Shown one piece after another: positions 986 to 49,580 of a stretch of DNA of 54,427 nt. Positions within the stretch are counted from its first letter, which is position 1; the number at the start of each line of letters is the position of its first letter. The stretch lies in IMG/VR virus record IMGVR_UViG_3300002138_000052, positions 1 through 54,427 of that record; one strand, given 5' to 3'. The notes beneath the pieces are model-generated. The model ran no database searches, was not told where the DNA came from, and worked only from the letters and a program-made list of their open reading frames with translations. The translations under genes and the position numbers were made by a program. The stretch comes from a virus.

Positions 986-1492
986 ATGAGTCACAAAAAC
1001 GAATTTGGTTGTTTGATGGCTTTTATTGCACCATCGGTCAGTCAAAACATAATTAAATATGGAAAAACAATGGTTCCAGACGATAATTTGTATATTGTTC
1101 CCGATGATGATTATGGTCGTGAGGTAGAGCCACATGTGACTCTCAAATATGGATTTACAAAAGATTTAACCGATGACCAAATTGCGGAAATAATAAATGG
1201 TATTGGTAAGTTTTCGGTTGTAGCAGAAGGAGTCAGTTGTTTTAAAAACGAATTATTCGATGTAGTTAAATTTGATATTAAAAAAACTGAACCACTTTTG
1301 ACAATGCGGGACAGATGTAATAAATTTCCAAATCAAGATTCATTTCCAAGCTTTCATCCACACACAACTATTGCTTATGTGAAGAAAGACACGTTTCCAC
1401 ATACTATAAAAAACAAAAATATTGAATTTAATGTGGATAGAATGAAATATAGTGGAATTGATGGTAAATCTAGGTGGTATGATTTAAAATAG
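986..1492 (+). CDS. 2H phosphoesterase-superfamily protein
   Basis: The 168-aa protein carries two H-x-T-[LI] motifs, HVTLKYG near residue 50 and HTTIAYV near residue 126, spaced as in the 2H superfamily (LigT/2'-5' RNA ligase, cyclic phosphodiesterases, and the T4 57B/Acb1 anti-CBASS nuclease). Members hydrolyse cyclic or 2'-5' linked nucleotide phosphodiesters with the two His as general acid and base. Substrate cannot be assigned here; RNA-end processing or degradation of cyclic-nucleotide immune signals are both plausible. It ends in TAG with a TAA two codons later. Confidence 0.75.
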   Translation: MSHKNEFGCLMAFIAPSVSQNIIKYGKTMVPDDNLYIVPDDDYGREVEPHVTLKYGFTKDLTDDQIAEIINGIGKFSVVAEGVSCFKNELFDVVKFDIKKTEPLLTMRDRCNKFPNQDSFPSFHPHTTIAYVKKDTFPHTIKNKNIEFNVDRMKYSGIDGKSRWYDLK

Positions 1493-3784: not shown

Positions 3785-4175
3785 TCGACAGCCTCCGGTA
3801 GTCATGAACCGGAGTTACGCATGAAGTAACGTGCTCTGAAATAAAGTCATCGCAGAAAGGCGAAAACGCCTAGGCCAGTGAGTAGTTGAGTAACCGATGA
3901 TGGTAACGTAAGAGAGGCTGTGACCATTTCTGAATATATGGAGAATAAAGGCGTAAGGATGTCGGCCATGAAAATGGCTTCTCAAGTGTATGTATCAAAC
4001 CATACTATATTCACCCTAGCGATTACATAATCGAGACTTACCACGGATGGTCAATCCACAGGTGAGATGTTGACGGTGGGAAAGAACACACCAATTTAAG
4101 CCGACGTAATTTAAAAACCTGAAAAGGACAGAAAAAATACGCCGATAGAAACTCAGCATCCCTTAGAACAAGGGT
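3785..4175 (+). ncRNA. Candidate large structured RNA
   Basis: About 390 nt without an ORF, dense in nested complementarity. ACAGCC (3788-3793) pairs with GGCTGT (3916-3921), enclosing TCCGGT/ACCGGA, GTTAC/GTAAC, and CATCG/CGATG around a GGCG-AAAA-CGCC hairpin (3859-3870). A second domain is closed by ATGTCGGC (3959-3966) with GCCGACGT (4100-4107) and contains GCCAT-GAAA-ATGGC. GGCGTA near 3950 can pair with TACGCC near 4137. The family is unknown; phage-borne, tRNA-adjacent ornate RNAs (GOLLD, ROOL) are the nearest analogy. Confidence 0.5.
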
Positions 4176-4268
4176 CATTAATGGATTATTAGATCTGTGA
4201 TTTCCTGCTGTGTCGATGAATTGTTGGTGCCAAATCCAACCGTCGGCTCCTTTATGAGAAGAAGTATA

Positions 4269-7060: not shown

Positions 7061-7181
7061 GGGTGAGTGACGGAATAAGACGTAGTGGTAAACAGAGTAT
7101 CCTAGAACAAGCGGGACTACTGAATTGGGCATCGCGTCAGTTGCGGACTCTAGTGTAGAGTGAAATTCTCTATCTCATCCA
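7061..7181 (+). tRNA. Oversized tRNA, probably Leu(CAG), with expanded D-region
   Basis: Acceptor GGGTGAG/CTCATCC, T-arm TAGAG-TGAAATT-CTCTA, anticodon loop GTCAGTT (CAG) on TCGC/GCGG, then the 8-nt variable region typical of the Leu tRNAs here. Total length is ~121 nt; the surplus ~40 nt lies between acceptor and anticodon arm. CC but not CCA encoded. Confidence 0.5.
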
Positions 7182-7185
7182 CCAA

Positions 7186-7314
7186 TTTCGGTAGTGTTAG
7201 CTGATTGATAATACATATAAGCTAGTTTGGGTGTCAAACGAAGCGTAGTTACGTGAATCATCGGTCCACAGAGTTGAGTGGGTATAACACAGGGTTCGAG
7301 TCCCAAGCTGAAAA
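7186..7314 (+). tRNA. Oversized tRNA-like gene, possibly Asp(GTC)
   Basis: Acceptor TTTCGGT/GCTGAAA (with wobbles), D-stem TAGCT/AGCTA, T-loop TTCGAGT on a GGG/CCC stem. A GTGTCAA loop (GTC) sits on TTTGG/ACGAA with one mismatch; an alternative stem GTTTG/CAAAC competes. About 45 extra nt lie in the variable region, including CGTA/TACG. Assignment is tentative. Confidence 0.35.
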
Positions 7315-7517: not shown

Positions 7518-7592
7518 AGGGATGGAGCTCGACGGTAGAGCAATGCACTGACACTGCAAAGGTAGCTGGTCCGATTCCAGTCATCCCTACCA
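7518..7592 (+). tRNA. tRNA-Val(GAC)
   Basis: Perfect acceptor AGGGATG/CATCCCT, D-arm GCTC/GAGC, anticodon loop CTGACAC (GAC) on TGCA/TGCA, T-arm GCTGG-TCCGATT-CCAGT, CCA encoded. The next CDS starts 4 nt after the CCA. Confidence 0.85.
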
Positions 7593-9054: not shown

Positions 9055-9425
9055 TAAATTTTGTATTGAAGACGTAGGCTTAGAAGCAGCCATCCTTAAT
9101 GAGTAGGTCGAAACGTCGGACTGGCCGCACTAGAAAAGTAATCAGATACATCGTCCGACAGTTCCAATCGCACATTTTAATGATATTTTAAATAGAATTA
9201 GACGCTGAATTGGGTCAAGTCTCAATTTAGAGGAAGTTCAAGACTACTAAACCTAATGTGGGAGATTTAATAAATCATTATTACCACAGAAGTAGCAATC
9301 CTAAAGGTCCGAGGGTGTCGGTTTCCCTATGACGACAGGTTGGAGCAGTAGCTATTAACACGCTACCACAGAAATGTGAGATAAATGTCTATAATAAACA
9401 AAATCTTGGCTAACTATTTAATTTT
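9055..9425 (+). ncRNA. Non-coding region containing a 23S rRNA helix-43 look-alike
   Basis: About 370 nt with no ORF. Positions 9074-9094 match the 23S rRNA GTPase-associated-centre stem-loop (helix 43; E. coli ~1059-1079) at 20 of 21 positions, with GGCT/AGCC closing the TAGAAGC loop; 9082 corresponds to A1067. Around it GTCGGAC/GTCCGAC forms a perfect 7-bp stem (~9113-9163). Further downstream are other short stems. The rRNA comparison rests on recalled sequence. Confidence 0.55.
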
Positions 9426-10644: not shown

Positions 10645-11316
10645 ATGAAAAGATTCTTTCCGGTAATTCACTGTAAGACTTTGGAACAGACGTTGCAAAA
10701 CGTCAGTCTCAATAGAAAGTCTGCGACTGGATTTTTTCTGATTAATCACAATTTTAACCACAAGAAATTTCGTAAGTTGGTTGAGGATGTCGTTAAATCG
10801 TTTCCCGACACCAATTTCGGGATAAACGTCTTGGATTTGTCCTTTGAAGAAGTGTTCAACAACGACATATCCGCAATTCCAGAATTGAAATACATTTGGG
10901 TCGATAATTGTGGTAATGATGGTGATTTTCTGGTTGAAGATTCCGAACGAATTTTGAAAATCAAATCACTTCGTCCAAACTTGGAGTTGTTTGGTGGTTT
11001 TGCGTTCAAATACCAGAATCAACCAACACATATTTCTACGTCTGGGCACTTCGCCTCCCGGTGTTTGGATGTCATTACGACGTCTGGTGACGGAACGGGA
11101 ATTCAAGCCGATGTAGACAAGATTAAACGTATTTGGAATTGGGTTGGTAACGGAAAGAGATTGGCTATTGCTTCAGGTATCAATTCTGAGAATATTTCTC
11201 TCTATCCCAAATATATTGACGACTTTTTGGTTTCGACGGGAATCAGTGATGATTTCTTTAATTTGAATGTGGAGAAAACCAAAGAATTACATGCACTCAT
11301 AGCTCAAATGGATTAA
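10645..11316 (+). CDS. TIM-barrel protein, possibly BtpA-like
   Basis: 223 aa from the ATG at 10645, 4 nt after the tRNA-Gly CCA. The C-terminal half carries alternating strand and loop motifs typical of phosphate-binding (beta/alpha)8 barrels: DVITTSGDGTG, RLAIASGINSENISLYPKY and DDFLVSTGIS, close to the pattern I associate with BtpA-like barrels (VTGSG..PENV...DG.IVGT). Substrate unknown. The last ~24 nt are shared with the 5' end of tRNA-Arg(TCT). Confidence 0.6.
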   Translation: MKRFFPVIHCKTLEQTLQNVSLNRKSATGFFLINHNFNHKKFRKLVEDVVKSFPDTNFGINVLDLSFEEVFNNDISAIPELKYIWVDNCGNDGDFLVEDSERILKIKSLRPNLELFGGFAFKYQNQPTHISTSGHFASRCLDVITTSGDGTGIQADVDKIKRIWNWVGNGKRLAIASGINSENISLYPKYIDDFLVSTGISDDFFNLNVEKTKELHALIAQMD

Positions 11317-11371
11317 GAGCGGACGGTTTCTACCCGTCAGGTTACAGGTTCGAGTCCTGTTGGGTGTACCA
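11293..11371 (+). tRNA. tRNA-Arg(TCT)
   Basis: Acceptor GCACTCA/TGGGTGT (G1-U72), D-arm GCTC/GAGC, anticodon loop TTTCTAC (TCT) on GACGG/CCGTC, T-arm ACAGG-TTCGAGT-CCTGT, CCA encoded. The final A is the first base of the sirtuin ATG, and the 5' half overlaps the previous CDS. Confidence 0.92.
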
Positions 11372-15178: not shown

Positions 15179-15251
15179 GGTGTTGTGGCCGAGTTTAGGC
15201 ATCTGTTCGCAAGACAGATTTACACTGGCTAAGTTCCAGTCGATACCTCCA
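15179..15251 (+). tRNA. tRNA-Cys(GCA)
   Basis: Acceptor GGTGTTG/CGATACC, D-arm GCC/GGC, anticodon loop TCGCAAG (GCA) on TCTGT/ACAGA with C at position 33, T-arm ACTGG-CTAAGTT-CCAGT (atypical loop), discriminator T, CCA encoded. Confidence 0.8.
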
Positions 15252-15260
15252 TTTTATTAT

Positions 15261-15332
15261 GGGTAGGTCGTCTAACTGTTAGGACAGTTCCCATTTCTGG
15301 AACAAATGCTGGTTCAAATCCAGCCCTACCCA
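15261..15332 (+). tRNA. tRNA-Glu-like (TTC or TTT register)
   Basis: Perfect acceptor GGGTAGG/CCTACCC, a D-region (TCGTCTAACTGTTAGGAC) resembling tRNA-Glu, T-arm GCTGG-TTCAAAT-CCAGC. The anticodon loop CATTTCT on GTTCC/GGAAC places TTT at 34-36 without U33; a one-base shift gives TTC (Glu), which the D-arm favours. Confidence 0.7.
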
Positions 15333-15341
15333 CCTTTTAAT

Positions 15342-15541
15342 AGGACGTTAGCTCAATTGGTGTAGATATAGTTCTAATTGAATAGTTAGAAATATTTTAC
15401 AGTATGAACTTGGTAGGTGAGTTGAAATCAACCAAAGTTACCGGTGACGATGGATGTGAGTAACCTTAAATATCATACTTTGTGGAGAGCACTTACTTTC
15501 TAAGTAAGGGGTTGGTGGTTCGAGTCCATCACGGCCTGCCA
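15342..15541 (+). tRNA. tRNA-Arg(TCT) interrupted by a ~124-nt insertion in the D-loop
   Basis: The 5' part (acceptor AGGACGT, TA, D-stem GCTC, loop AATTGGT) and 3' part (D-stem GAGC at 15487, CTTAC-TTTCTAA-GTAAG with anticodon TCT, T-arm GGTGG-TTCGAGT-CCATC, acceptor ACGGCCT, G, CCA) together form one tRNA with a single A4-G69 mismatch. About 124 nt (15362-15485) lie inside the D-loop, bounded by imperfect repeats TTGGTGTAGA and TTTGTGGAGA. Insert stems: TTCTAA/TTAGAA, AGTATG/CATACT, GTTG-AAAT-CAAC, GTTAC/GTAAC. A CDS begins 3 nt after the CCA. Confidence 0.7.
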
Positions 15542-15544
15542 TTT

Positions 15545-15775
15545 ATGGTTTTGACTGAAAATGAAGAGAAGTTTTTGAAACGGTATTTTAACGAATACGC
15601 AATACACCGTGGAGAAGATGTTATTGGTGTGTTGATGTTAAATGGTGCGTTCAAAGAACTTCCCGATGGTCAATTGGTTGAATTTTCTAATAAGTTAGAA
15701 GATAAACGGGTGGAAATTGAGTTAAGAGAACAGATTGAAAAACAAAAACAACGATACAACAAAAATGAAAACTGA
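15545..15775 (+). CDS. Hypothetical protein, 76 aa
   Basis: The ATG is 3 nt after the CCA of the interrupted tRNA-Arg. Helical, acidic N-terminus and Lys/Gln-rich C-terminus. Its last codons overlap the next gene's ATG at 15765. Family unknown. Confidence 0.55.
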   Translation: MVLTENEEKFLKRYFNEYAIHRGEDVIGVLMLNGAFKELPDGQLVEFSNKLEDKRVEIELREQIEKQKQRYNKNEN

Positions 15776-16022
15776 ATTGTAGAATTGCAAAGAAGCCGTG
15801 TTTCACTTTAATAAAGCACATTTAACGAATCCGTCGATTCCTATGTGGGTGATTAAAGCCAAGGGTGAAACATTTTACGTGAATCACGTTACGGCGAATG
15901 TTGGTTGGACAACGAAAGAAACAGTTGACAATCCTCATACTAAGGGTAGTATCAAGTTTAAGAATGTGGATGTAGTAATTGAAAACGGTGACGGACTGAT
16001 TACAAATGCATCAGTAGCTTAA
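15765..16022 (+). CDS. Conserved phage protein with in-frame amber codon at codon 6
   Basis: From the ATG at 15765 the frame reads MKTEL, then TAG (15780-15782), then NCKEAVFHFNKAHL and onward. The recognisable core is IPMWVIKAKG...FYVNHVTANVGW...TKETVDNPHTKGSIKFKN, which I recall as a conserved phage protein of unknown function. Without readthrough the only start would be GTG at 15798 with little upstream signal. The 3' end overlaps the amber-suppressor tRNA(CTA) gene by ~15 nt, linking the amber codon and its suppressor in one unit. Confidence 0.6.
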
Positions 16023-16078
16023 TGGCAAAGCGGGAATCTCTAAAATTCTGCATGTGGGTTCGATCCCCACCTTTTGCA
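16008..16078 (+). tRNA. Amber suppressor tRNA, anticodon CTA
   Basis: D-arm GCTT/AAGC, anticodon loop CTCTAAA on GGAAT/ATTCT (positions 34-36 = CTA, complementary to UAG), T-arm GTGGG-TTCGATC-CCCAC. Acceptor GCATCAG/CTTTTGC has two mismatches at positions 4 and 5. Ends ACC without the final A. Amino-acid identity is not predicted. In-frame TAG codons occur at 15780, 18940 and 23383. Confidence 0.8.
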
Positions 16079-16151
16079 CCTTTGTTGAAAATTAAAATAA
16101 GTCGTTTGGAAAGTTTGATAATACTTATCTGAACAATGAAGTGAAAATCGG

Positions 16152-16274: not shown

Positions 16275-17286
16275 AGGTTAGTTGAGTGTTATACGTGAAA
16301 CCTTAGATTAAAAACTCAACAGTATGGTCGATAATACTAAAAGTTATCCGTCACCTATTGCCGACAAATAATGGAAACTATCATGAAGGGTGATTCATGA
16401 CATTATTGGATTTATGTGTAAATCCACGTTTTTGTAAATTTGTTCTTTGTAAGTTTAGAATTTGGGGGCTTGACCCCTTTAGATAAGTCATCGAAAGGTG
16501 ACAAAAGAGAATTCCCCCTAACGGGAGCTCGCCATCGCAAGATGGACACTCAAGCAACTGATAGAGTCGTTGTCCTTCACTCAAAAGGTGGAGGTATATC
16601 TGACGCTGGATTGGAAAATTGTTGGTTTAGGGTAACACTGTAAACCGCATACTAACGGTACCGCCGAGCAATACCAATTCCTAACGGAACAGCCAAGAAT
16701 AAGATTCAAGTCAAACATGTAGGTGTGAAACCGCAATTAAATGCTTACATGTAGAATGATAGAGAGTGGTCTGGGTAACCATGAACACAATCTTGAAATT
16801 CCGTTGAGTATCCGCAAGAGAAAGACATGGGTCGTGTCGCATATTGTATCCCAAAAGGATATGAAACGACAAGTAACGCACGACCCTGTTAGGTGCATTA
16901 ATAGCTCAATGGTAGAGCAATAGTATTATACACTATATGATTGGTTCAATTCCAAGAATGAAAACGCAAAGTCGTTACGCTCAGTGAATGAAAGTGACTT
17001 AATTCCGAACTCTTAGGAGAATTCGGACGATAGACTGCTCGCAAGGCATAAATCGTTGATATTAAATCAAACGGTGCTCGCAAAGCTTAACTGTCCGCAA
17101 GACAGACGGGTGTAGAGATATTGAGTAGTTCATTGGTTGACTGGAAAAGCTACCAGTATAAAAAAGCAGTCATGTTAAATACTGATATAGGTTTCGACCA
17201 TATTAGTGGATAAAATTAGGAAGCATTGTCGGCAGACGATGTATAATCTAATCAAAGATTAACGTAATATGGTGTAATCTCAACCA
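16275..17286 (+). ncRNA. Giant ornate structured RNA candidate (~1 kb)
   Basis: No credible ORF across ~1 kb. Numerous GNRA-type hairpins are visible: GTCATC-GAAA-GGTGAC (16487-16502), CCATC-GCAA-GATGG (16532-16545), CTGTC-CGCAA-GACAG (17091-17105), CATTGTC-GGCA-GACGATG (17224-17241). Long-range stems are ACATGTA (16715)/TACATGT (16746), GGTCGTG (16830)/CACGACC (16879), CCGAA/TTCGG (17005-17026), and a perfect 9-bp ACCATATTA (17197)/TAATATGGT (17265) closing the 3' domain. A tRNA-like element sits at 16894-16962. Size, tetraloops, tRNA adjacency and phage context recall GOLLD/ROOL RNAs; not verified. Confidence 0.6.
16894..16962 (+). tRNA. tRNA-like element inside the giant RNA (anticodon TAT)
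   Basis: D-arm GCTC/GAGC, anticodon loop ATTATAC (TAT) on ATAGT/ACTAT, T-arm TTGG-TTCAATT-CCAA. The acceptor is only partly complementary (CATT/AATG) and no CCA follows, so it may be a structural domain rather than a working tRNA. Confidence 0.45.
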
Positions 17287-24428: not shown

Positions 24429-24827
24429 ATGATTAAATTAAAAGACCTTATACAAGAAGGGTGGATTGATGAGGTATCCACGACCACTCGTAGTTTTCGT
24501 CAAATTCATCAAGATGAAGATCCTTCTGGACAAAGACACGATTTGAGATTAACATGTGTCGAATGTGGAACTACCTCGACATGTAGATGTAGGAAACCAA
24601 AGAGAGAATTTAAGGGTTTATGTGATACGTGTGCTAAGGTCGATGAAAATAACGATTTTCTGGCCAAATTTGGAGTCGGTCCAAAATACAAAGCTCCCGA
24701 ACCAGTAAAACGTAAATGTCCTAAATGTAATAAAGAAAATGCGGTTGTGAGAGAAAGTCATGCCGATACTGACATGAATGAAATGGTATTGGAATGTCCT
24801 GACTGTGGTTGTGAGGTAAGTTTATGA
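24429..24827 (+). CDS. Multi-zinc-ribbon protein with MIKLKDLIQE N-terminus
   Basis: 132 aa. After the MIKLKDLIQE peptide come CVECGTTSTCRCRK, CDTCAK, then RKCPKCNKEN and LECPDCGCEV: about four CxxC pairs, two zinc ribbons. Likely nucleic-acid or protein binding. ATGA overlap with the CCA-adding enzyme gene. Confidence 0.65.
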   Translation: MIKLKDLIQEGWIDEVSTTTRSFRQIHQDEDPSGQRHDLRLTCVECGTTSTCRCRKPKREFKGLCDTCAKVDENNDFLAKFGVGPKYKAPEPVKRKCPKCNKENAVVRESHADTDMNEMVLECPDCGCEVSL

Positions 24828-26275
24828 TTAAGATGAAAGATTTAGTTATGGAAGGTGCGAAGGAAAATGCTGCGTTAGATTACTTGAGTCAGTTGGTCCA
24901 AAGTGGACCATTCAAAAACCGAGTATATCTGGCGGGTGGTGCCGTGCGTGATATGGAATTGGGTAAAGACCCAAAAGACCTAGATGTAGTGGTAACGGGT
25001 GGTATTGACGCAGGCATGGAGTTTGCGAAGTGGGCAACGCAACATATGGGGAATTTCAAGGATGGTAGTAATCCTGTCTTATTTCCGACGTATGGAACGG
25101 CTAAATTTACATTATCTGGTATCACGCACAAGGATATTGATTTGAGTGACGTCGATATTGAGGCGGTTGCAACTCGTAAGGAGAAATACACGGCTGGTAG
25201 TCGTAAACCAGAGGTTAGTGCTGGTGACTTGGAAGATGATGTAAATCGTCGTGATTTCACTGTCAACAGTTTGTTGAAAGATTTGACGACGGGTGAAATC
25301 TTGGATTTGACTGGTAAAGGTAAAGAGGACATTAAACGTGGTGTGGTTCAAACACCACTGAATCCTGATGTCATCTTCTCCGAAGACCCACTGCGTATTT
25401 TGAGAGCGGCACGATTTGCGGTCAAGTATAATTGGGATTTACCAATGTTCATGATTCGGGCAATGAAACGAAATGCACCTCAGTTAAAGAATATCAGTTT
25501 TGAACGTATCCGTGATGAATTGGATAAGATGTTATTGACGACTTCCCCACACCGTGCAATCAAGTTGTTGAAGGTGACGGGTGTTCTTGATTATGTCATT
25601 CCAGAGTTCAAGGATGCGTATAAAATGACGCAGAACAAGTATCATACTGCGACGGTATTCAATCATACGTTGGACGTGTTATCCAACACACAATCGAATA
25701 GTTTGATTTCTCGTATTGGTGCATTATTGCACGATATTGGTAAGACGGCTACACGAACGGTGGTAGATAACGAAGTTCATTTCTATGCACACGAAATGGT
25801 TGGTGCAAAAATGGCTGAGAAGATTCTTACCCGTTTGAAGTATCCACGGGAAATCATTGATGCGGTTGTTTTGGGTGTTCGTAACCACATGCGTTTGAAA
25901 CAGTCGGGTGAAGAAGGAGAGAAAATTTCCGACAAAGCCCTACGTAAAATTACGGTGGAATTACAACCTCATTTACATGACATTTTGAGTATTATCCAAG
26001 CTGATAACTTGGCTCATGCTCCGGGTCATCAAATGCCAAATCAAATTCCGAATATCATCAAACGTATTGAACAGTTGATGAATACCATTCCTGTTAAGGG
26101 TCAGAAATTACCTGTCACGGGTGAGGACTTGAAGGCCATGGGAATTCCTACTGGACCATTATACAAAGAGTTGTTGGACTTGGTGAGAGACAAGAGATTG
26201 GAAACACCAAACGCAACAAAAGAAGAGTATTTAGAGTTGATTAAGAACTACCTGTCAACGAAGAATCCTCAATAA
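24824..26275 (+). CDS. cca: tRNA nucleotidyltransferase (CCA-adding enzyme) with HD domain
   Basis: 483 aa. VYLAGGAVRDMELGKDPKDLDVVV is the class II nucleotidyltransferase head with the catalytic D-x-D; RRDFTVNSLL and DPLRILRAARFA are the conserved nucleobase-recognition and neck motifs. An HD domain follows (ALLHDIGKTAT, then H-E and H-x-R-L). The enzyme adds or repairs the 3' CCA, matching the many tRNAs here that lack an encoded CCA. Unusually, it starts with MIKMKDLVMEGAK, the peptide shared with neighbouring genes, suggesting virion packaging. Confidence 0.92.
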   Translation: MIKMKDLVMEGAKENAALDYLSQLVQSGPFKNRVYLAGGAVRDMELGKDPKDLDVVVTGGIDAGMEFAKWATQHMGNFKDGSNPVLFPTYGTAKFTLSGITHKDIDLSDVDIEAVATRKEKYTAGSRKPEVSAGDLEDDVNRRDFTVNSLLKDLTTGEILDLTGKGKEDIKRGVVQTPLNPDVIFSEDPLRILRAARFAVKYNWDLPMFMIRAMKRNAPQLKNISFERIRDELDKMLLTTSPHRAIKLLKVTGVLDYVIPEFKDAYKMTQNKYHTATVFNHTLDVLSNTQSNSLISRIGALLHDIGKTATRTVVDNEVHFYAHEMVGAKMAEKILTRLKYPREIIDAVVLGVRNHMRLKQSGEEGEKISDKALRKITVELQPHLHDILSIIQADNLAHAPGHQMPNQIPNIIKRIEQLMNTIPVKGQKLPVTGEDLKAMGIPTGPLYKELLDLVRDKRLETPNATKEEYLELIKNYLSTKNPQ

Positions 26276-47980: not shown

Positions 47981-48748
47981 ATGAAGAAATTCTATGTATA
48001 TATTTATTTAGACCAGCGAAAACATGGCAAGTGGATTTTTAAAGATAAAGTTTTTAGCTATCAGCCATTCTACGTAGGAAAGGGAACAAATAAAAGAGAT
48101 ATCTCGCATTTATGCCCGTATATGTTGAATAAAAAAACATATAAATCATCAACAATAAAATCAATCATTTCAGAAACTGGTGAATTACCGATACATGAAA
48201 GAATATACGAAAATTTAACAGAAGCAGAAGCTATTTCAATAGAAAAAGATATAATCAAACATTTTAAACGAAAAGATTTATTCACGAGTGGTATTTTATG
48301 TAATCACACAGATGGTGGTGATGGTGTAGTTAATCTCTCAAATGAGATTAGAAATAATATGGGTAAGAAATTCCAAAAACCCGTATATCAATACGATTTA
48401 GATGGTAATTTTATTAAAAAATGGGATTCTTTAACATCTGTTTCAAATATAGTAGAAACTATTTCTAATATATCTACTGCTATAAAAAGAAATGGAACTT
48501 GTGCAGGGTTTCGATGGTCTTATGAAGATAAAGGAAAAAAAATCGAAAAAACAATAAAATATCAGATGCCTATAAAATACAAAAATATTCATCAAATTTC
48601 AATAGATGGCGGGACTACTGTGGCAGTCCATAAAAGTGCATTGGAAGCAGCTACCAGTTTAAACTTGACAAACAGATGCGCCCGTAATAAGATAACAGAG
48701 GCTGTTAAAAAAGGAACAACTGCATATGGATATAAATGGAAAATATAA
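47981..48748 (+). CDS. GIY-YIG homing endonuclease inserted in the Thg1-like gene
   Basis: 255 aa. FYVYIYLDQRKHGKW...QPFYVGKGTNKRDISHL is the GIY-YIG core of the T4 Seg-like branch; ENLTEAEAISIEKDIIKHF follows. C-terminal YQYDLDGNFIKKWDSLTSVS...CAGFRWSY and ITEAVKKGTTAYGYKW are NUMOD1-like. AT-rich. Its end overlaps the Thg1 start by 23 nt. Confidence 0.88.
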   Translation: MKKFYVYIYLDQRKHGKWIFKDKVFSYQPFYVGKGTNKRDISHLCPYMLNKKTYKSSTIKSIISETGELPIHERIYENLTEAEAISIEKDIIKHFKRKDLFTSGILCNHTDGGDGVVNLSNEIRNNMGKKFQKPVYQYDLDGNFIKKWDSLTSVSNIVETISNISTAIKRNGTCAGFRWSYEDKGKKIEKTIKYQMPIKYKNIHQISIDGGTTVAVHKSALEAATSLNLTNRCARNKITEAVKKGTTAYGYKWKI

Positions 48749-49580
48749 AAAAGACGCATTAGGTATGCGTATAAAATCTAGTTACGAGGATAGAACTAGA
48801 TACTCTCTACCTCGTAGAACATATACAATTATTCGTTTAGACGGAAAAGCATTTCATACTTACACAAAAGGGTTGAAAAAACCATTTGATAAAGAATTGA
48901 TTGATGATTTGGACAATACTGTAAAAGCAATCCTTCCTCAAATACAAGGGGCAGTATTCGCATATGTTCAAAGCGATGAAATCTCAATTCTCTTGACTGA
49001 TTTTGAAAAGGATACTACTGATGCGTGGTTTGATGGTAATATTCAGAAAATCTGTTCTGTGTCAGCAAGTTTGATGACTGCTGAGTTTAACCAATATAGG
49101 TTTAAAACTTGGCTTAAAGAGTATTCCAAAGCATTATCTGAATCGGATTTACATACATTTTCAGACGGACAAGTGGTGGGTATCGAAGAATTTCGTCCTG
49201 CGGCATTCGATTCCCGTGTATTCACCATTCCCGATAGAACGGAAGTGATGAACTACTTTATTTGGAGAAATCAAGATTGCACCCGTAACTCTGTTTCTAT
49301 GGTGGCCCAAAGTCTATACAGTCACAAGGAATTGCACGGTAAGAACAGTTCTCAACTCCAAGAAATGATTTTCCAAAAGGGAATCAATTGGGCTGACTAT
49401 GACCCAAGTTTGAAGAATGGTCGTGTCATTATCAAAGAGAAAGTGTTTGATTTGGATGAAATAACTCCTGAGAACATTGCACCACCCGCAAGAACTCGAT
49501 GGACATCACAACCTGCGTGGAAATTCACACAGGACAAGGATAAGTTGTTGACCATGATTCCCGAATACCAATATGATTAA
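48726..49580 (+). CDS. Thg1-like tRNA 3'-5' polymerase
   Basis: 284 aa (first ATG 48726; ATG at 48765 also possible). YTIIRLDGKAFHTYTKGLKK and VQSDEISILLTD are the two metal-binding carboxylate motifs of Thg1/TLP enzymes (R-x-D-G-x-x-F-H and S-D-E-x-S), with CTRNSVSMVAQ and ELHGKNSSQLQEMIF C-terminally. Thg1-like proteins add nucleotides to tRNA 5' ends in a 3'-5' direction, repairing 5'-truncated or mismatched acceptor stems. This suits the phage tRNAs here with G1-U72 or mismatched acceptors. Confidence 0.9.
   Translation: MDINGKYKKDALGMRIKSSYEDRTRYSLPRRTYTIIRLDGKAFHTYTKGLKKPFDKELIDDLDNTVKAILPQIQGAVFAYVQSDEISILLTDFEKDTTDAWFDGNIQKICSVSASLMTAEFNQYRFKTWLKEYSKALSESDLHTFSDGQVVGIEEFRPAAFDSRVFTIPDRTEVMNYFIWRNQDCTRNSVSMVAQSLYSHKELHGKNSSQLQEMIFQKGINWADYDPSLKNGRVIIKEKVFDLDEITPENIAPPARTRWTSQPAWKFTQDKDKLLTMIPEYQYD

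Follow-up and report, generated by a model that had tools for sequence, protein, structure and literature searches.

When the two parts of a phage tRNA gene lie more than a hundred nucleotides apart inside the D-loop, is the gene real, and what does the additional DNA make of it, i.e., a damaged copy, a precursor from which a piece is removed, or a tRNA with an extra domain? The question is raised by a tRNA-Arg(UCU) gene (15342-15541) in the large-phage tRNA island of the IMG/VR record IMGVR_UViG_3300002138_000052, the whole of which (54,427 nt) is the window considered here. Bacterial tRNA genes are viewed as uniform and interrupted only by introns at position 37/38 (PMC4033280), while the phage introns known by 2014 were in protein genes only, despite the many tRNAs of phages (PMC3984707). 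A search of the open-access literature, within its limits, brought up no bacterial or phage tRNA described as having an insert in the D-loop.

The split of this tRNA-Arg(UCU) is real and very rare. Reading both halves together (Table 1), the acceptor stem has six of its seven pairs, all Watson-Crick, with A4/G69 as the sole mismatch, and the D-stem (4/4), the anticodon stem (5/5) and the T-stem (5/5, with one G-U) are complete. All residues of the tertiary contacts are kept, namely U8, A14, A15-U48, G18, G19, A21, U33 and the TTCGA of the T-loop. The gene shows the cloverleaf stems and conserved residues of a class I tRNA but with a D-loop of 132 nt, not of normal length, and besides A4/G69 the insert is its only defect. 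Position 20 is U, versus A20 in the two intact Arg tRNAs of the phage; A20 is an Arg identity base in Escherichia coli. The halves stand in normal order, the 5' half before the 3' half, so that the permuted tRNA suggested in the first-pass annotation does not apply. Neither half could be read as part of a second complete tRNA; for the 3' half alone, the sole acceptor strand upstream is the one at 15342.

Table 1. Coordinates of the split tRNA-Arg(UCU), its insert and related features (in the window unless another record is named).
Feature	Position	Strand	Remark
5' half, tRNA-Arg(UCU)	15342..15361	+	AGGACGT-TA-GCTC-AATTGGT; from sequence and strict scan
5' half, parts	acceptor 5' strand 15342-15348; D-stem 5' strand 15351-15354	+	U8-A9 between them; D-loop AATTGGT
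3' half, tRNA-Arg(UCU)	15484..15541	+	GGA-GAGC-A-CTTAC-TTTCTAA-GTAAG-GGGTT-GGTGG-TTCGAGT-CCATC-ACGGCCT-G-CCA
3' half, D/anticodon side	D-stem 3' strand 15486-15489; anticodon arm 15491-15507	+	anticodon TCT 15498-15500
3' half, T/acceptor side	T-arm 15514-15530; acceptor 3' strand 15531-15537	+	G73; encoded CCA
D-loop insert	15362..15483	+	122 nt; between D-loop positions 19/20 and 21, after G18-G19
Insert hairpin 1 (predicted)	15362..15400	+	39 nt; GUAGA..UUUAC, UUCUAAUU/AGUUAGAA; z -2.25
Insert domain 2 (predicted)	15401..15479	+	79 nt; AGTATGA/TCATACT closing, two inner hairpins; weakly supported, z -1.0
Intact tRNA-Arg(UCU), same island	11293..11371	+	59.9 bits; makes the interrupted copy redundant
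Downstream ORF	15545..15775	+	starts 3 nt after CCA; no family match
CCA-adding enzyme	24824-26275		
Thg1 family (3'-5' polymerase)	48726-49580		
LigT-like 2'-5' RNA ligase superfamily (2H) protein	986-1492		
GOLLD RNA	16829-17286		209.8 bits; encloses tRNA-Ile(TAT)-like sequence 16894-16963
L346 tRNA	7179-7306	minus	IMGVR_UViG_3300017605_000906, 69-kb phage contig; anticodon AAT

Common tools see the gene poorly. The Rfam model RF00005 scored its 3' part only, at 28.3 bits and thus below the gathering threshold of 29, and ARAGORN overlooks it in a default run and, in intron mode, wrongly fuses the 3' half to the neighbouring tRNA-Lys (15261-15334), eight bases beyond which the 5' half begins. 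With a strict tRNA scanner allowing D-loops up to 400 nt, it is the sole long-D-loop tRNA of the window. Dinucleotide-preserving shuffling of the 400-base stretch preceding the 3' half gave 5 completions of that half in 5000 trials, 2 of them with a 4-bp D-stem. Along with the stems, this test confirms the first-pass reading of a tRNA-Arg(UCU) with a D-loop insertion of about 124 nt, the length being 122-124 nt. The same 200 bp are present with 100% identity in a second assembly, IMGVR_UViG_3300002143_000074, which argues against an assembly error; over the 9.5 kb that it shares with the window, that sister record is 99.96% identical and, both being practically the same virus, it affords no evolutionary or selection test.

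The insert itself is AT-rich (32% GC) and has no long open frame. The imperfect direct repeats said to flank it, TTGGTGTAGA/TTTGTGGAGA, are indeed present and match at 8 of 10 positions, and because of this imperfect repeat its boundaries are uncertain by a few nucleotides. Neither the insert nor the 3' half has another copy in the window, and an Rfam search of 15300-15600 at E<=5 gave no group I or II intron, no other ribozyme and no match to the insert. Group I introns of bacterial tRNA genes, located in the anticodon loop (e.g., tRNA-Leu UAA), are likewise noncoding inserts between halves in normal order, but the present insert is 122 nt long, has no ribozyme match and sits in the D-loop, as such bearing out the earlier exclusion of a group I intron and of the position reviewed for bacterial tRNA introns (37/38; PMC4033280). 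The four stems of a strongly structured insert did not fare as well, since the statistics are weak: the folding energy of the whole insert has a z of about -1.8 (8 of 200 shuffles as good) and is equalled by 5.8% of the shuffles in an insert-replacement test (p about 0.06), making the structure a prediction and not a finding. In the split tRNA, the cloverleaf lies 1.6-5 kcal/mol above the minimum-energy fold, and 80% of shuffled inserts are as compatible with it as the real insert or more so; there is hence no sign of an insert shaped to fit the tRNA. In a simple bulge-helix-bulge scan, the window was indistinguishable both from chance and from the Aenigmatarchaeota examples considered below.

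The tRNA-Arg(UCU) isoacceptor is redundant in this phage, and an insertion into a redundant gene, probably not spliced and most likely leaving a disrupted copy in early decay, is the explanation we tentatively favour, at somewhat less than an even chance. Some 122 nt of noncoding DNA, either foreign or produced by recombination, would have interrupted a native phage tRNA-Arg(UCU) between G19 and A21, in the variable pocket of its D-loop. As an insertion there leaves stems and tertiary contacts untouched, the rest of the gene would still look perfect; the insertion would be tolerated because the island holds another, intact tRNA-Arg(UCU), and most likely no dedicated splicing removes it. From the intact gene at 11293, the A4/G69 mismatch together with U20 instead of A20, an insert unfitted to the cloverleaf and its confinement to this virus in the searches made, we infer tolerance, lack of splicing and decay. 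The same redundancy pattern is seen for the hairpin-bearing tRNA copies of Bacteroidales. Three observations speak against decay, namely (i) apart from A4/G69, all class I hallmarks are kept, whereas decay should erode them, (ii) the exact tolerant site has been hit twice in unrelated phages, as would fit selection for a retained function, and (iii) the phage has a set of genes for tRNA maintenance, encoding a CCA-adding enzyme, a Thg1-family protein and a LigT-like 2H protein. AGA accounts for 82 of the 256 Arg codons in 24 ORFs of the phage and is well used, so that a functional tRNA-Arg(UCU) copy would have work.

The second hit emerged from searches of viral sequences. Against 50,697 phage records, the insert gave short chance matches only and no convincing relative, and the search for an empty site, with an anticodon-arm pattern in viral contigs, returned this virus only and no uninterrupted D-loop partner. 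By neighbouring proteins, the closest relative was the 99.96% identical sister (L122) only, and more distant large phages (G006 and others) have tRNA islands without such an insert. A pattern of D-arm, 100-130 nt gap and Arg-UCU anticodon loop matched 35 viral loci, 34 of which are ordinary tandem tRNAs, an explanation that fails for the one exception, this virus itself (L147); a first pattern, GTAGATATAGTTCNNA, was too short and yielded chance matches. A search for D-loops 30-60 nt longer than normal gave 46 viral loci, most of which match by chance or contain a partly duplicated tRNA 5' end; one, L346, is a true case. A wider viral pattern brought no further case among the matches listed, and most long-D-loop matches in viral and cellular contigs arise where the 5' part of a complete tRNA is partly duplicated; counts from two of the wide scans are lower bounds.

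Similar inserts in other phage tRNAs, when searched for, thus come down to one match at the same D-loop place. The L346 gene reads GGCAGGG-TA-GCTC-AATTGGT, insert, then GAGC, and its folded insert directly follows the GGT of the D-loop as here. It differs by a D-loop of 62 nt, the anticodon AAT, an acceptor paired 7/7 (GGCAGGG/CCCTGCC) and both an unrelated phage and an unrelated insert sequence, and its minimum-energy free fold is the cloverleaf plus an extra arm. A large ORF upstream of this tRNA looks like a terminase.

Beyond viruses, a scan of cellular genomes for enlarged D-loops brought up two groups among the matches listed, the Aenigmatarchaeota and the Bacteroidales. D-loop introns are expected in Aenigmatarchaeota, of which three examples were recovered (L513, L521, L596). 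Archaeal noncanonical pre-tRNA introns have the D-loop insertion in common with the present gene but depend for their removal on EndA cleavage at bulge-helix-bulge motifs, whereas this virus has bacterial-phage features, such as its GOLLD RNA. Among 295 Bacteroidales genomes drawn evenly, six gave pattern matches, five of them tRNAs with a hairpin (two Phe, two Lys and one Thr) and the sixth resembling a partial duplication. Seven Bacteroidales genomes with a hairpin-bearing copy (Phe, Phe, Lys, Thr, Gly, Gly, Gly) each have another copy of that tRNA, and in the five cases where this other copy was read completely its D-loop is uninterrupted. In G136, G035, G011, G119 and L497, the intact copy is on the same strand, 1.6-12 kb upstream, its identity with the hairpin copy starts at the D-stem 3' strand, and in three of the five it is directly followed by a tyrosine recombinase that has the domains Arm-DNA-bind_5, Phage_int_SAM_5 and Phage_integrase and that in G035 is divided between two ORFs; G010 and G013 have a further tRNA-Gly(CCC) copy in the genome. 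The hairpin copies would be attachment sites at which the element, on integrating, contributes an end that resembles a D-arm and carries a hairpin, and these cases show that D-loop inserts persist where the tRNA copy is redundant. At L663 (5580-5684), L664 (10118-10232), L666, L668, L497, L595 and L498, integrative elements with Arm-DNA-bind_5 tyrosine recombinases are bounded on one side by a tRNA copy whose D-loop contains a hairpin of some 10 bp and on the other by an intact tRNA, an arrangement that recurs for Phe, Lys, Thr and Gly tRNAs. The attachment-site copies (Parabacteroides, Muribaculaceae) share with the phage gene the D-loop site and the intact partner copy, but their hairpins, roughly 35-55 nt, would come from element integration beside a tyrosine recombinase, for which no match was found here.

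Set against the favoured insertion in a redundant gene, it is possible, if doubtful, that the phage tRNA is functional despite its 122-nt D-loop domain, either as an intervening sequence that is removed or as a five-armed tRNA, with L346 as a second example; a broken spare copy is about as likely as a new kind of intron or a five-armed tRNA. Considering removal, the insert would excise itself from the precursor or be cut out by phage enzymes or, at its hairpins, by host RNases, the halves being then joined or remaining a two-piece tRNA held by the acceptor and D-stems. Everything outside the insert is canonical, the hairpins predicted near both its ends could be RNase III substrates, and the phage encodes an ATP-dependent ligase in addition to its Thg1-family protein, CCA-adding enzyme and LigT-like protein. 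Nevertheless, 122 nt are too short for a group I intron, no Rfam ribozyme was matched at E<=5, and the insert has no relatives and only a marginal structure, making this reading unlikely. The first-pass suggestions of an intron-like or regulatory element gained no positive evidence, as the insert is without relatives and the empty site was not found. Rather unlikely, too, is a functional tRNA in which the insert is retained and forms a fifth arm at the D-loop, be it expanded or regulatory: the insertion lies in a naturally variable part of the D-loop and the independent L346 folds at minimum energy as a cloverleaf with an extra arm, but here the cloverleaf is not the minimum fold, its compatibility with the insert is below average and the isoacceptor is redundant. 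Moreover, a domain of more than 100 nt at the tRNA elbow should disturb the contacts with RNase P, EF-Tu and the ribosome. Least probable is an attachment site or a chimera, with the 3' half as an att-like tRNA fragment, or as part of another tRNA, and the 5' half from a different tRNA: the Bacteroidales copies would be such sites, with direct repeats from near the D-stem and a tyrosine recombinase by the intact copy, and each half holds a nearly full D-loop (AATTGGTGTAGA; ACTTTGTGGA), but no match to Phage_integrase (PF00589), which leaves an attachment site weakly placed, was found in the window and its sister record (G000, G001) or in the L346 record, all possibly fragments, the 3' half has no second copy in the window, an acceptor of 6/7 with a D-stem of 4/4 is expected in about 0.1% of shuffles, and the CCA-TTT-ATG junction behind the gene, also found behind the tRNA at 7518-7592, is native phage context.

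The island has other unusual features. GOLLD RNAs holding tRNAs in their linker are already known (PMC12286853); as in the split gene, a tRNA and a structured RNA are nested in a phage tRNA island, but with the tRNA inside an ornate RNA versus an insert inside a tRNA. A tRNA with the anticodon CTA (16008-16080), labelled tRNA-Pyl by ARAGORN, is a possible amber suppressor; of 24 sampled phage ORFs, only one has TAG as its stop. Four tRNA-like stretches (4098-4252, 7062-7190, 7186-7311 and 15181-15251) have long or odd bodies, matching acceptor strands and weak T-arms, the last reading as a tRNA-Cys with C33, which suggests many aberrant or decaying tRNAs in the island; the first three were suggestive by eye as further long-bodied tRNAs but failed the strict scan. 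The noncoding stretch 9074-9110, GTAGGCTTAGAAGCAGCCATCCT.TAATGAGT, is a copy of the hairpin of the 23S rRNA GTPase-associated centre (helix 43 loop), conserved as GTNGGCTTAGAAGCAGCCATCYTTTAAAGAGT and unannotated in unrelated large phages, namely pf16, UNO-G1W1, Aeromonas 4_4572, CBB, GAP32, XacN1, Astolliot and Paenibacillus Pd_22F, and located within or beside tRNA clusters in several of them; it could be a phage RNA mimic of the ribosomal factor-binding site.

Genes of this type are overlooked by standard tRNA finders. With two phage tRNAs whose D-loops are interrupted at one and the same spot, it becomes testable whether an additional domain can be accommodated at the tRNA elbow or whether phages possess an undescribed means of removing it. 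Should the functional reading be true, this would be either a five-armed tRNA or the first case in which an intervening sequence is removed from a phage tRNA at a position other than the anticodon.
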